Below are positions 23,506 to 63,913 of a stretch of DNA of 64,000 nt, piece after piece (positions within the stretch are counted from its first letter, which is position 1; each line of letters starts with the position of its first letter). The position numbers and the translations under genes are program-made. Under the pieces are notes generated by a model that saw only the letters and a list, made by a program, of their open reading frames with translations, was not told the DNA's origin and did not search any database. Source of the stretch: Gemmatimonadaceae bacterium (GTDB lineage: Bacteria > Gemmatimonadota > Gemmatimonadetes > Gemmatimonadales > Gemmatimonadaceae); contig JADZDM010000005.1 in NCBI GenBank assembly GCA_020851035.1, positions 62,001 through 126,000 of the forward strand, given 5' to 3'.

Positions 23506-25034
23506 GGCTGCTGTCCGGTGGCGCTGGCCGTGCCGCCGCCCGAGCCAAGGGGCAGGTCGCGCAGCAGGGTCATGCGAAGTCGTGCGAGTTGCAGGTCCCT
23601 CGCCGCCGTGAGGCGGTTCGCCTGCGACTGGATCAGCAGGTTGCGGATGTCACTCAGCTCGAGCTGGGTGGAAATGCCATTGGAATAGCGCACCTCTGCG
23701 ATGCGCAGTGCCTTGTCCGCCTGGTCCTCCGTGCCGATGCTGGCCAGCCAGTTCGCCTCCGCCTGCTCGAGGCTCTTGAGCGCGAGCTGCACATCCAGGG
23801 CCGCCGCACGCCGCCCCTGGCTCAGCCGTGCCTCGGCATCCGCCACGTTGGCGCGGGCCACCATCTGGTCACCCTTGATCCGACCGCTGGTCCAGATCGG
23901 CAGGGTGAAGCCGAGGCTCACGGTCCAGGCGGGATAGAAGTCGGCGAGGGTGCGCGGGATGATGTCGCTGTTCGACGGATAGGCCGCGCGGGAGTAGTTC
24001 GAGGCGAGGTTCAGGACCGGCACCCGGGCAAGCTGCGCATTCCGGAGCGCCCCCTTCTGCACCTCGAGCGCGGCCGCCGCCTGCTGCACGGCGCTGCGTG
24101 CCTCCGGCGCGGTGTCACGCGGCCCGAGCTTCGGCAGCACCTGCGCACCGGCGGCCGAGAGCCCCGTGCCGGCCGATGGCCGCACGTCGGTGTCGAGTTG
24201 CGACGTGGCCAGCACGCGGTCCATGTCCGCATCCTGGATCGGCGTCGTGAGGTCGAGACGCGTCGTCAGCGGCAGGTTCAGCAGCTGCTTCAGGTTCAGC
24301 GTCGCGATGTCACGGTTCTGCTGCGCGCGGATCAGCAGCGGGCGCTGCGCATCCACCGCCACGCGCGATCGCAGGAGGTCGTACTCGGCCACCGTGCCGA
24401 CCTGGCGCTGCAGCGTCGTCTGCTGGAGCGTGCGCTGGACCTGCACCAGCGAGCTCTCCGCGATCTGCACCAGCTTCTCGGTGATCACCGCATCGAAGTA
24501 GGCCGCCGCGATGTCGTACCGGAGCTTGGCGCGTGCCGTGCGCAGCCCGTAGCGCGACACGTCCTCGTTCGCCTTGGCCACCCGCGTTGCCACCTTGAAT
24601 CGCCCGTCGACGTACAGCGGCTGGGAGGCCTGGAGGCCGAAGGTGATCGTGTTCGGCGAGGCGAACAGCAGGCCGATCGGGTTGACGGCGGCGGTGGTCG
24701 TGTCGGGCGGCGCGGTCGGATCCGTTGGCTGCGCGAAGCGCTTGGTGATCGCCGCGAACTGGTTCTGGATCTGGTGCTGGTAGTTGGCCGTGGCACTGAG
24801 CTGCGGCAGCACCGTGGCGCGCGTCTGGAAGTACTGGCCCTTGGCGCGCGTCACGGCGTTCTGCGCCAGGCGCACGTCGTCACTCGCCGGCTCCGCGAGG
24901 CGGAAGGCGTCATCGAGGGTGAGCGGGCGGGTCGCCGGCACCGGCTGCTGCGCACGGGCGTGCTGTGGCAGGAGCGCGGGGAGCAGCAGGGCCAGCACGG
25001 CGCGACGGGCGATTCCCGTCCAGGCCGAATGCAT
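23502..25034 (-). CDS. TolC-family outer-membrane efflux channel
   Basis: The 510-residue protein has a signal peptide (IARRAVLALLLPALLPQHARAQ) and two outer-membrane efflux protein repeats rich in long amphipathic helices. Typical TolC-type phrases are LTLDDAFRLAEPASDDVRLAQNAV near residue 40 and ALDVQLALKSLEQAEANWLAS near 415. It forms the trimeric channel for the RND pump encoded downstream. The ATG at 25034 shares one base with the tetR stop (TGATG), so translation is coupled. An upstream extension to 25295 overlaps tetR and is rejected. Confidence 0.92.
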   Translation of the reverse strand: MHSAWTGIARRAVLALLLPALLPQHARAQQPVPATRPLTLDDAFRLAEPASDDVRLAQNAVTRAKGQYFQTRATVLPQLSATANYQHQIQNQFAAITKRFAQPTDPTAPPDTTTAAVNPIGLLFASPNTITFGLQASQPLYVDGRFKVATRVAKANEDVSRYGLRTARAKLRYDIAAAYFDAVITEKLVQIAESSLVQVQRTLQQTTLQRQVGTVAEYDLLRSRVAVDAQRPLLIRAQQNRDIATLNLKQLLNLPLTTRLDLTTPIQDADMDRVLATSQLDTDVRPSAGTGLSAAGAQVLPKLGPRDTAPEARSAVQQAAAALEVQKGALRNAQLARVPVLNLASNYSRAAYPSNSDIIPRTLADFYPAWTVSLGFTLPIWTSGRIKGDQMVARANVADAEARLSQGRRAAALDVQLALKSLEQAEANWLASIGTEDQADKALRIAEVRYSNGISTQLELSDIRNLLIQSQANRLTAARDLQLARLRMTLLRDLPLGSGGGTASATGQQP

Positions 25035-25708
25035 CACAGAAGATCCGAGGTAGGTGTGAGTGGTGCGCCGCCTGGGCCAGCCGGCGCGGACGCCGGTCGG
25101 CTGGTGACGCCGAGCGCACGCAGGAAGACCTGTACGTAGCGCTGCGCGGCGCGGGTTTCGGGGACCCAGAGCTTGGCCTCGTCGCGGAGTTCGCGGGCCA
25201 TGGCGTCGCCCCAGAGTCCGCCGATCAGCAGCGTCTGTGACGCGGTGAGCAGTTCCTCGAAGTCCGGATCGGCCAGCAACGTGCTGCTCACCCATCCGTC
25301 CCGCACCAGTGCCCGGACGTAATCGTGCAGGTCGCGGTCAGCGCAGCGGGCCGGCTCGAAGCTGTTGGCCATCTCGTGGAAGCGCCCTTCGGCCGCTCCC
25401 ATCGCCTTCCGCAGCAGCTCGCGCGACCCACGCACCTGGCGGAGGAACTGCCCGCACCAGTTGGTGAGTTCCACGGCAGGGTCCGCCGGCGTGGACGGCA
25501 GCGGCGGCTCGACGACCTTGATGGCCGCGACCCGCCGGAACAGCGCCTCGTCCATCAGCGCGGCCTTCGAGCCGAAGTTGCGGAAGATCGTGACTTCGTT
25601 CACGCCGGCGATTTCGGCCACCCGGCGCGTGGTCGCGCCCTGGAAGCCCGATTCGGCGTACGCCGACATCGCTGCGGAAATGATCTTGTCCCTGACATCG
25701 TTTGACAT
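25034..25708 (-). CDS. TetR/AcrR-family repressor of the efflux operon
   Basis: The 224-residue protein has an N-terminal TetR helix-turn-helix (about residues 5-55: KIISAAMSAYAESGFQGATT, EIAGVNEVTIFRNFGSKAAL) and a helical ligand-binding C-terminal domain. It is the first gene of the unit and is directly joined to tolC, so it probably represses its own operon. A promoter with TTGCTT, 17 nt, TATACT lies immediately upstream, and an inverted repeat overlaps its -35 box. The -10 box ends 7 nt before the ATG, so the transcript is likely leaderless. A start at 25729 is possible but would lie upstream of the predicted transcript start. Confidence 0.92.
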   Translation of the reverse strand: MSNDVRDKIISAAMSAYAESGFQGATTRRVAEIAGVNEVTIFRNFGSKAALMDEALFRRVAAIKVVEPPLPSTPADPAVELTNWCGQFLRQVRGSRELLRKAMGAAEGRFHEMANSFEPARCADRDLHDYVRALVRDGWVSSTLLADPDFEELLTASQTLLIGGLWGDAMARELRDEAKLWVPETRAAQRYVQVFLRALGVTSRPASAPAGPGGAPLTPTSDLL

Positions 25709-25715
25709 GGATGCC

Positions 25716-25744
25716 AGTATAGGAGGCACCGGTTATGTAAGCAA
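25716..25744 (-). promoter_or_regulatory. Promoter of tetR efflux operon, leaderless type
   Basis: On the minus strand the -35 box is TTGCTT (25744-25739), the spacer is 17 nt, and the -10 box is TATACT (25721-25716). Seven bases (GGCATCC) separate the -10 box from the tetR ATG, so transcription should start at or next to the A of the start codon. Confidence 0.8.
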
Positions 25745-25761
25745 GCAGGTACTTGCGTACA
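25736..25761. promoter_or_regulatory. Candidate TetR operator
   Basis: TGTAAGCAAG and CTTGCGTACA are inverted copies matching at 9 of 10 positions around a 6-nt centre. The palindrome covers the -35 box of the tetR promoter, a usual place for an autoregulatory TetR site. Confidence 0.65.
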
Positions 25762-25799: not shown

Positions 25800-26114
25800 T
25801 CTAAGGTGTTGTCGGAAAAGGAGTTACGCGCCAACGACTCAGAGTCCTTTACGCCTCTACGACTCAGAGTCCTTTACGCCTCAACGACTCAGAGTCCTTC
25901 ATGTCTAAGATATTGTCGCAAAAGGAGTTACACCCCAACGACTCAGAGTCGTCTACGCCCCAACGACTCAGAGTCGTTTACGCCCATACGCCTCTACGAC
26001 TCAGAGTCGTTTGCGCCTCTACGACTCAGAGTCCTTCAGATCTAAGATGTTGTCGGAAAAGGAGTTACGCCTGAAATACTCAGAGTCCTTCAGGTCCAAG
26101 CCTCAAAGTCGTCC
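25800..26114 (+). repeat. Array of GACTCAGAGTC repeats with three header units
   Basis: ACTCAGAGTC occurs eight times, starting at 25837, 25862, 25887, 25941, 25966, 25999, 26024 and 26078, with a decayed copy at 26103. The usual step is 25 bp (copy plus a TTTACGCCTCTACG-type linker). Larger steps of 54 bp hold a header unit, TCTAAG.T.TTGTCG.AAAAGG, found at 25800, 25904 and 26041. Each full copy is a 5-bp palindrome around one base. Base composition is much less GC-rich than the surroundings. The rest of the gap 25709-26268 holds the tetR promoter and the btuB terminator. No gene is supported here. Confidence 0.92.
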
Positions 26115-26268: not shown

Positions 26269-28527
26269 TCAGAACGCCGTCGTCACCCGTACCAGCACCG
26301 CCCGCCCGGGCAGGCTGTAGCCGCGCTTCTCGTAGTAGTTCTCGTCGGTCACGTTCGAGAGCTGCAGGTCGGCACGGATCCGGGTCGTCAGCCGCAGGCC
26401 GGCCGTCAGGTCCAGCACCGCGAACGGCGGGTACTCGATGTCCGACACGTCCGAAAAGTCGCTGAAGTCGTCGTCCAGACGCCGGCCGACATACCGGCCC
26501 AATGCTCCGAGCCGAAGGCGCGACCGGCTGTCCCACTCCACACCGACATTCCAGTTCGCTGCCGCCACGTTCTTGATCCGCGACGTGGTGAGCGGCGCAC
26601 CGATCACCACCCCGCTGAAGATCGACGCGGGGGAGAAGTTCGTCGCCCCGGCGAACGGCGCCGCATCCACCGTCACCGTCGGCGTCGCCTGCGACGCCTC
26701 GAGGATCCGGGTCATGCTTGCAAAGGTGTTGAGTGACCAGCGCCGCTGCAGCGCCACGCCCACGTCGAAGCGCGCCGAGGCCTCGAACCCGCGGATCCGC
26801 GCCTCGCCGGCATTCACCGACGTCGTCACCCGCGACACCTGGTCACCGCTCGCCAGCACCGGGCGCGAACCCGCCGCGAAGGAAGCGCGTGCCTGCGCGA
26901 TGCGATCCGCCACGTCGGTGTGGAAGTACGTCGCATCGAACGCCAGCGCCCCATGCATCCGCGTGACCCCCAGCCCGAGGTCCGCCGTCACCGAGTGCTC
27001 AGCACGCAACGTCGGGTTGCCGAAGGTGATCGCCGCCACGCCCGACGTCACCGACTGCGTCAGCCCCGCGCGCCCGAAGGCATCCGGCGCCAGGAAGGCG
27101 CGCCCTACGCTCCCGTGCGCCCGCACGCCCCCGCCGAGCGTGTACGCCAGCCCGGCGCTCGGGTTGAAGACCGTGAAGTCGTCGTCACCTGCCACCACGT
27201 CGGACCGGAGCGGGGTACTGAGCAGCTTCAGCGTCACGCGGTCTGCGCGGGCCCCCATCGTCGCCACCAGCCGGCCGGCGAGCGCTGTCAGCCGCGCCTC
27301 GCCAAACAAAGCCAGCGAGCGGTTCTCGCTGTTCGGGCTGAACGTCCCCACCTCGGAGGTCGGCGCCGACCAGCGCTGCGAGGTCGCCCGCTGCGCCGTG
27401 CCGTCCACGCCGAACACCACCTGCTGGCCGCCCACCTGCAGCACGTCCTGCACCTGGAAGCCGCTCGTCCGCACGACCGACGCGAAGTTCACGAAGCGCG
27501 CGCTGTCGGGCCGGTTCAGGTAGTCGCTCGTCTCGTCGGTGGTGAAGAGGCGCGCCAGCAGCGCATGCCCGCGCACGGCACCACCCAGGTCCACCGCCCC
27601 GCCCGTCCGGCGGAGGTTCTTGCGACTGTTGCCGGGAAACGGCGTCGCCGCCGAGTAGAGATCGCCGGGCGAGGGCAGGTCCTGCGCGTCGAACGCATCG
27701 CCGCGCACATCCAGCCGCAGGTGGCGGCCGATGCTCCCACCCACGCGCATCGTTCCGCTGGTGGTGGCCATCGTCGTGAACACCCGCGTGACGCCGTCAC
27801 CGAGGGTGTCGGGTACCCACCGGCTTGGCGTCGTCGCCCCGGGGTAACTCTTCAGCGCCGTGTCGCTGCCGAACACGCCACGCAGCGCGTTGCCGCCCCC
27901 GATGCCGTAGTCGTTGCGCTGGTCGTAGCGGCGCAGGCTCACGTCGGCATCCAGCCCGCCGAACAGCGCCCCGCCACCCTGCACGCGGAACTCGCTGGCG
28001 CCGAAGCTCCCGCCGCCCACCGACACCAGCGCCGAGCGCGCCCCGGTGCGCTTCCGCGTCACCACGTTCACCACGCCCCCCATCGCCGCCGAACCATACA
28101 GGGCCGACGCTGGTCCCTTCAGCACCTCCACACGCTCGACGTCCTGCACGTCGAGCAGTGAGAGATTGGTGATCCCGCTCGGCCGGCCGTCCAGCAGGAT
28201 CAGCACCCGCTGCTGCAGCGAGCCGACCTGCGGACGGAAACCGCGAATGCCAACGCCGCCAAGCAGGCCGGGATACTGGACCACGTCGAGTGTGGCCCGC
28301 TTCTTCAGAAGGTCCACCATGTCGAGCGCGGCAGTGCCGTCGAGCTGCGCGCGCGAGATGACCTCGACGCGGCGCGGCAGGGAGTCGGCGGGCGCCGCAT
28401 AGCGCGACGCGGTGGTGGTGACCGTGGGCAGGCGCGGCACACGCACGGAGTCGCGCCCCGGCTGCTGGGCGCCGAGGGCGGTGGCGCCGATCGTCACGAG
28501 CACGAGGGCGCGGAATGATGTGGACAT
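26269..28527 (-). CDS. btuB: TonB-dependent receptor, predicted cobalamin (BtuB-like) importer
   Basis: The 752-residue receptor has a signal peptide (LVLVTIGATALGAQQ), a plug domain (about 40-150: ISRAQLDGTAALDMVDLLKK, GIRGFRPQVGSLQQRVLILLDG, VERVEVLKGPASALYGSAAMGGVVNVVT in parts) and a 22-strand-type barrel ending in Phe (VRVTTAF). The plug resembles BtuB and CirA. The assignment to cobalamin rests on context: a cobalamin riboswitch and a terminator lie in its leader on the same strand. No btuCDF or cobalamin synthesis genes are in the window. The start at 28527 gives a complete signal peptide. Confidence 0.88.
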   Translation of the reverse strand: MSTSFRALVLVTIGATALGAQQPGRDSVRVPRLPTVTTTASRYAAPADSLPRRVEVISRAQLDGTAALDMVDLLKKRATLDVVQYPGLLGGVGIRGFRPQVGSLQQRVLILLDGRPSGITNLSLLDVQDVERVEVLKGPASALYGSAAMGGVVNVVTRKRTGARSALVSVGGGSFGASEFRVQGGGALFGGLDADVSLRRYDQRNDYGIGGGNALRGVFGSDTALKSYPGATTPSRWVPDTLGDGVTRVFTTMATTSGTMRVGGSIGRHLRLDVRGDAFDAQDLPSPGDLYSAATPFPGNSRKNLRRTGGAVDLGGAVRGHALLARLFTTDETSDYLNRPDSARFVNFASVVRTSGFQVQDVLQVGGQQVVFGVDGTAQRATSQRWSAPTSEVGTFSPNSENRSLALFGEARLTALAGRLVATMGARADRVTLKLLSTPLRSDVVAGDDDFTVFNPSAGLAYTLGGGVRAHGSVGRAFLAPDAFGRAGLTQSVTSGVAAITFGNPTLRAEHSVTADLGLGVTRMHGALAFDATYFHTDVADRIAQARASFAAGSRPVLASGDQVSRVTTSVNAGEARIRGFEASARFDVGVALQRRWSLNTFASMTRILEASQATPTVTVDAAPFAGATNFSPASIFSGVVIGAPLTTSRIKNVAAANWNVGVEWDSRSRLRLGALGRYVGRRLDDDFSDFSDVSDIEYPPFAVLDLTAGLRLTTRIRADLQLSNVTDENYYEKRGYSLPGRAVLVRVTTAF

Positions 28528-58173: not shown

Positions 58174-58269
58174 GACTCTGTCCCCGCCGGCCACCCGTGA
58201 CTCTGAGTCCGAGACGGGCGTTGGCCCGCGCGTGACTCTGAGTCGGAGACGGGCGTTGGGGACAGAGTC
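58174..58269 (+). repeat. GACTCTGAGTC repeats in an inverted-repeat frame
   Basis: GACTCTGTCCCC (58174-58185) and GGGGACAGAGTC (58258-58269) are perfect 12-bp inverted repeats. Between them are two copies of GACTCTGAGTC (58199-58209 and 58234-58244), each followed by a GAGACGGGCGTTGG unit. This is the reverse complement of the repeat in the array at 25.8 kb. The gap is 280 bp between the metalloprotease and the next gene. Confidence 0.88.
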
Positions 58270-63800: not shown

Positions 63801-63913
63801 GCCGTTCAAGGGGACGGGGATCTTGAACGGGGGGTGCGTCAGGGCCGTTCACGGGGACGGGGATCTTGAACGCGCGTGCGCCAGGGCCGTTCAAGATCCC
63901 CGTCCCCTTGAAC
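63801..63913 (+). repeat. GGGGACGGGGATCTTGAAC repeats, two direct and one inverted
   Basis: Unit 1 is 63801-63829, unit 2 is 63844-63872 with one change, and unit 3 is inverted at 63886-63913. Each unit has terminal GTTCAAG/CTTGAAC inverted ends. Units 2 and 3 can form a stem of over 20 bp. It begins 5 nt after the dehydrogenase stop, so it could act as a terminator. 63914-64000 shows nothing I can identify. Confidence 0.9.

Follow-up and report, generated by a model that had tools for sequence, protein, structure and literature searches.

A tag-less palindrome array as a probable local expansion of a REP-like repeat family linked to a Y1 transposase

The palindrome array between a TetR-family regulator gene and a TonB-dependent-receptor-like gene in the 64,000-nucleotide stretch analyzed here (the window, to which all plain positions refer) is probably, at roughly 80%, a cluster, tag-less and expanded in place, of a REP-like repeat that is intergenic and species-specific, with the RAYT/TIRYT-type C21 Y1 (HUH) transposase of the same genome as its cognate enzyme. 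Since the motif of the family also occurs on both sides of the C21 gene, we take the array to be, most probably, a passive repeat that this enzyme has spread, and not a site of methylation or of regulator binding. It is best read as a product of repeat spread, nothing supporting a function in TetR control. Mobilization of the repeat by the C21 transposase is our best inference from the sequence comparisons.

Layout of the array and its surroundings

The initial annotation had described eight exact palindromes that step by 25 bp and are interrupted by three headers (Table 1). All eight copies of ACTCAGAGTC were recovered in place within 25837-26087 (starts 25837, 25862, 25887, 25941, 25966, 25999, 26024, and 26078), as were the headers (starts 25800, 25904, and 26041). 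The regular step held within the blocks only: successive starts are 25, 25, 54, 25, 33, 25, and 54 nucleotides apart, i.e., 25 in four of the seven steps, both 54 steps crossing a header and the 33 step being a separate irregularity. Seven of the eight palindromes are of the GACTCAGAGTC form, containing both GACTC and GAGTC as had been pointed out. The remarks on composition and placement were equally accurate, with 15 GANTC sites in the 315-bp array versus 145 in 64 kb, a GC content of 50.5% versus 69.4% for the window, and a location upstream of the minus-strand tetR gene.

Table 1. Coordinates of the array, its neighbors, and related features
Feature	Position	Strand	Description
TetR-family regulator gene	25034..25729	-	Promoter side toward array; named from ORF reading and the initial annotation
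Palindrome array	25800..26095	none	Three blocks, each starting with a header
Array blocks	25800-25903, 25904-26040, 26041 onward		3, 4, and 1 palindromes, respectively
Header 1	25800..25829	+	TCTAAG...TTGTCG.AAAAGGAGTTAC
Headers 2 and 3	starts 25904, 26041		TCTAAG...TTGTCG.AAAAGGAGTTAC
Sites 1-3	25836..25896		GACTCAGAGTC at 25836, 25861, 25886; centers 25 nt apart, 14-nt loops
Sites 4-7	25940..26033		GACTCAGAGTC at 25940, 25965, 25998, 26023
Site 8	26078..26087		ACTCAGAGTC; outer G lost, reads TACTCAGAGTC
TonB-dependent-receptor-like gene	26269..28527	-	3' end toward array; named from ORF reading
Second family cluster in window	58174..58269		GACTCTGTCCCC at 58174, GACTCTGAGTC at 58199, GACTCTGAGTC at 58234, GGGGACAGAGTC at 58258-58269
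RAYT-type Y1/HUH transposase gene	G000:C21:174683-175498		271 aa; bracketed by inverted family motif, tagged and untagged

Compared with itself over 50 nt, the array reached identities of up to 94% at offset 137 and up to 90% at offset 104, indicating that the header-led blocks are segmental duplications. No GGGG tag occurs in 25800-26095, which is why we call the array a tag-less variant of the family described below; the header may possibly be a decayed tagged end, judging from the resemblance of AAAAGG-AGT to AAAAGGGGTCTGAGT. A DNA search of the genome with an 85-nt composite of the array returned 13 matches, of which the 7 outside the window array hit the palindrome-and-spacer part only, and the header was thus not found elsewhere as a second dispersed repeat. 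Nor was any similarity of the array to phage DNA found.

An empty-site comparison of the array locus was made against genomes G001 and G002, in neither of which an empty site was readable; at the G002 locus (L121), the alignment with the tetR region ends at window position 25753, short of the array, and another gene lies upstream there. Immediately upstream of tetR, at 25737-25760, the window has an imperfect palindrome, GTAAGCAAGCAGGTACTTGCGTAC, and a stretch resembling it precedes the tetR homologue of G002. It is possibly a TetR operator, putative from sequence and unrelated to the array.

The dispersed family and its transposase

The search for other arrays proposed in the initial annotation turned up further copies, contrary to one of the refuting conditions named there. 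The ACTCAGAGTC 10-mer occurs 69 times, grouped in 33 clusters, in the 4,969,989-base genome, while the mirrored pattern does not occur; in 60 relatives there are 0 to 5 copies each, about background, and in two same-genus genomes 0 and 2. In keeping with the extragenic location of REP-like elements, 64 of the 69 copies lie outside predicted genes, although 86% of the sequence is coding (genes predicted with a home-made codon-usage gene caller, which called 86% of loci coding). The 28 clusters without any copy in a predicted gene are situated between tandem (15), divergent (8), or convergent (4) genes, with 1 undetermined. The suggestion of a non-autonomous repeat is supported by a dispersed intergenic family whose motif also flanks a Y1 transposase gene. 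A canonical REP hairpin foot, GT[AG]G, was not seen, by eye, as a common element of the printed sites and their flanks, and searches of the literature for the motif strings brought up no apparent bacterial repeat among the titles listed.

Altogether 104 sites were read, 74 of them palindromic (GACTC-N-GAGTC, with any center base) and 30 carrying a G-run tag (GGGWCWGAGTC), such as GACTCTGTCCCCTTT and GACTCAGACCCCTTTT. The 12-base core of GACTCTGTCCCCTTT, GACTCTGTCCCC, is found 19 times in the genome versus 0 for its control, and the degenerate motif GACTCWGWSYCSTTT, which covers both tagged and palindromic forms, gave 81 matches versus 2 for the control (at most one mismatch). In the second cluster of the window (Table 1), the tagged sites face each other and the centers are spaced 25/35/25. 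At another locus (L066, G000:C21:248072-248310), GACTCGGAGTCCTTT, a G-centered variant of the palindrome, occurs three times at a period of 112 bp.

Three Y1_Tnp genes, C21, C25, and C2, were found in the genome. The C21 gene is located on a different contig from the window. Its left flank carries AAAAGGGGTCTGAGTCACGGAGGGGTGCGTGACTCTGAGTCA (AAAAGGGGTCTGAGTCA...TGACTCTGAGTCA) and the right flank four GACTCTGTCCCCTTT (GACTCTGTCCCCTTTCTGTGCCCG) followed by TGACTCAGAGTCA. One of the flanking tags, GGGGACAG, fits the GGGGWSAS consensus; that on the other side, GGGGTCTG, differs from it at one position, and the tag of the C21 homologues, mostly GGGGTCAG, fits. The C21 protein matches PF01797 with 39.9 bits (cut-off 23), and the residues H97, H99, Y157, N161, and P162 of the HUH and Y---NP motifs are invariant in five aligned homologues. 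With the NCBIfam RAYT model REP_Tyr_transpos it (P0001) scores 70.1 bits, below the cut-off of 80 that one of the five proteins tested reached. No Pfam match to a C-terminal HTH-like domain (Bac_DnaA_C, HTH_23, or HTH_28) was obtained for five proteins up to E = 10, and a PDB sequence search with the C21 transposase gave no match up to E = 0.01.

Flanking the C25 gene on both sides is GTTCAAGGGGACGGAGATCTTGAAC, which forms a second dispersed family (95 matches versus 1 for the control, at most one mismatch); the window itself contains, at 63804-63913, a cluster of GTTCAAGGGGACGGGGATCTTGAAC repeats belonging to this second REP-like family. The C2 gene (L120, G000:C2:173105-173773) is bracketed by inverted repeats around GTGACAGTGCAC, which suggests, from sequence, a third repeat family. 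Thus C21, C25, and C2 are each flanked by a different repeat.

Among 395 genomes of the phylum, 22 encode a homologue of the C21 protein (E <= 1e-5), and nine have at least three TCWGWCCCCTTT sites (G372, 68; G345, 59; G357, 56; G369, 37; G000, 20; G339, 8; G097, 4; G035, 3; and G012, 3). A homologue is present in 8 of these nine versus 14 of the 386 others (Fisher p = 2e-10, an optimistic value given that the genomes are related to one another); 14 of the 22 carriers, accordingly, have fewer than three sites. In G339, with 8 tagged sites, no Y1_Tnp was found, which implies that a repeat family can outlive or lack its enzyme. Two loci of the same genome (L141 and L142) carry a perfect palindrome of 32 bp, AAAGGGGTCAGAACAATTGTTCTGACCCCTTT.

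In the related genomes, the homologues of the C21 gene are likewise flanked by inverted GGGGTCAGA-type repeats. The pairing was also apparent in a motif-free test on 300-bp flanks, in which the longest inverted match exceeded all 60 shuffles at 17 of the 27 testable loci (28 were entered; L115 has no downstream flank, and L119, the second piece of the L112 gene, was omitted). By identity, this was the case for 15 of 18 loci at 40% or above (the C21 gene included) and 2 of 9 below 40%. In the upper group, the test failed at L093, which is at a contig end, and at L098 and L116, where 2 and 7 of the 60 shuffles, respectively, gave a match of the same length or longer. Of four named homologues, three (in Rhodospirillum rubrum, Pseudoalteromonas sp. 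THAF3, and P. phenolica) are flanked on either side by related inverted repeats, and for the fourth, in Skermanella rosea, the tag is confined to the upstream side. Dispersed copies in G345, G357, G372, G369, G339, and G097 (15 stretches, picked from the places listed) are mostly hairpins tagged at both ends, e.g., AAAGGGGTCAGAGTCGTTGACATGTCAACGACTCTGACCCCTTTT. In the flanks of two other homologues, L105 and L107, AGCTCTGACCCC is repeated in tandem as units of 12 nt, the shortest tagged repeat form seen.

Fixed spacing, folding, and competing readings

Two features look unusual for such a family: most copies are tag-less and self-complementary, and in most clusters the centers are exactly 25 nt apart despite unconserved intervening sequence. 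Counting neighbors within 120 bases, palindromic and tagged sites pooled, the center-to-center distance is exactly 25 in 42 of 71 pairs and 24 in another 5, and 23 of the 33 clusters contain a pair of this kind. With one first neighbor per locus, 18 of 26 distances are 24 or 25 (p ~1e-25 versus 2 in 109 equally likely spacings). Compared across loci, the 14-nt loops of paired sites are 33% alike, and compared within one locus, 61%; in an alignment of 20 doublets, one per locus (the window being represented by the 58174 doublet, not by the array), the signal comes mostly from the sites themselves, with a weaker TTT directly after site 2. Outward-tagged pairs in relatives are anywhere from 13 to 51 apart (25 included, in two rows), and the exact pitch hence seems particular to this genome. 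Compensation at the center base of paired sites was considered and rejected, the palindrome pairs at 25 nt having mixed centers and those of the window array being A/A in 4 of 4.

In single-stranded form, a doublet can adopt a fold consisting of a GACTC.GAGTC stem, a 14-nt loop, and a second GACTC.GAGTC. Compared with shuffles, two array doublets fold modestly better (z -1.85 and -2.54) and the left repeat of the C21 transposase gene far better (z -5.45); a lone palindrome (z -0.39) and the first 105-nt block (z -0.09) fold no better. In the preferred reading, the basic unit is a pair of GACTC-N-GAGTC (or tagged GGGGWC-W-GAGTC) sites 25 nt apart, able to form in single strands a stem with one mismatch interruption and a loop of about 14 nt. 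The transposase would recognize this single-stranded unit, probably at the replication fork, and copy it or move it in trans to places between genes; at the array locus, the unit would subsequently have been expanded by segmental duplication, at the 137- and 104-bp offsets.

The rigid spacing itself hints at a duplex constraint, as a folded single strand should tolerate changes in loop length. Together with the dissimilar loops, in which there is little position-specific signal, and the 11-bp palindrome with its odd center, it would suit duplex binding sites for a dimeric protein (a regulator or chromosome-organizing factor) phased at 25 bp and possibly derived secondarily from the repeat. We nevertheless consider such sites unlikely: the location of 15 of the 28 noncoding clusters between tandem genes and of 4 between convergent genes reveals no shared promoters, the transposase gene is bracketed by the same motif, and the two same-genus genomes have next to no copies. 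The neighboring TetR protein is not a candidate binder, the motif being present at some 30 unrelated loci. A part in RNA, as a terminator or 3'-end stabilizer of the TonB-type gene or as a tetR leader, along lines proposed for classical REPs, appears very improbable even though the array, as minus-strand RNA, has a good fold (z -4.6, with 0 of 100 shuffles as good), since tandem palindromes fold by construction. Moreover, 8 of the 28 noncoding clusters, at other loci, are between divergent genes, and the array matched no Rfam family up to E = 1.

The density of GANTC sites had led the initial annotation to raise a methylation cluster, which would imply CcrM-like cell-cycle control. This found no support and is, in our estimation, barely credible: what is conserved is the whole 11-mer plus its spacing, the tagged sites hold one GANTC each, and the sole PF01555 methyltransferase found in the genome, encoded beside an ATPase-like ORF, has 595 aa, CcrM being much shorter.

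Returning to repeat spread by the C21 transposase as the preferred reading, a change in the enzyme's specificity can be envisaged. In its presumed guide-recognition loop, the C21 protein reads WERRYSS and the other aligned homologues WEGR[YF][RK][SA] or close to it. Among 18 aligned homologues (an alignment that omits L096, with its in-frame stop, L108-L113, L115, and L117-L119), the position following WE (or the equivalent pair) is occupied by G in 16, by S in 1, and by R in the C21 protein alone; three positions further along, 16 have R or K, 1 has G, and the C21 protein alone has S. Quentin et al. (2018; PMC6006769) place recognition of the guide sequence by Escherichia coli TnpAREP in the W94-R104 region, to which, from the shared W, we infer that the changed loop corresponds. 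In this one case, the changed loop and the changed repeat fit a specificity switch. The fuller scenario, in which the enzyme switched, the repeat mostly lost its tag and became self-complementary, and the doublet turned into an open-ended chain with a 25-nt pitch and new sites added at a set distance, is speculative and on balance doubtful; a fixed-pitch, open-ended chain would follow because a palindromic site can pair with either neighbor. If true, this would represent a new way for REPs to grow and account for the exact spacing with unrelated loops.

Relation to known systems

The closest relatives by description are the genes termed TIRYT by Di Nocera et al. (2013; PMC3733652), whose flanking inverted repeats share GGGGWSAS, are gene-specific, and form moderately abundant dispersed families (TIRtrons) of single, dimeric, or grouped copies. 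Quentin et al. (2018; PMC6006769) equate their TnpAREP subclass 2.1 with TIRYT and the GGGG[AT][CG]A[CG] consensus, ascribe HTH-like C-terminal domains to it, and report no REP-like sequences beside its genes.

The C21 protein shares with subclass 2.1 the HUH and Y---NP core and likely belongs to it, membership being short of proven because no C-terminal HTH is detectable (no Pfam match up to E = 10, unlike the subclass as described) and the NCBIfam RAYT score is under the cut-off. A further difference from the subclass as surveyed is the presence, at most homologues, of inverted, partly self-complementary repeats. This pairing of gene and repeat, which holds across the bacterial family and in three of the four named relatives versus none in the 2018 survey, implies that enzymes of the subclass may spread repeats just as the classical RAYTs do. 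Comparison of sister systems, tagged versus tag-less, offers a direct route to whether the enzyme reads the tag, the palindrome, or the spacing.

With TIRYT/TIRtron elements, the system described here has in common a RAYT-like Y1 gene, inverted flanking repeats, and dispersed copies of the same repeat; it differs in that 74 of the 104 sites are tag-less (the window array wholly so) and in the exact 25-nt spacing with unconserved loops. A further parallel is the GTAG-tagged REP/REPIN with its RAYT, which Bertels and Rainey are said to have described in 2011. Unlike these elements, the repeat has no GTAG/GTGG tag, the tag of the relatives lies inside the stem, and the transposase resembles another subclass; like them, it consists of short palindromic units that lie between genes and are associated with a Y1 transposase of low copy number.
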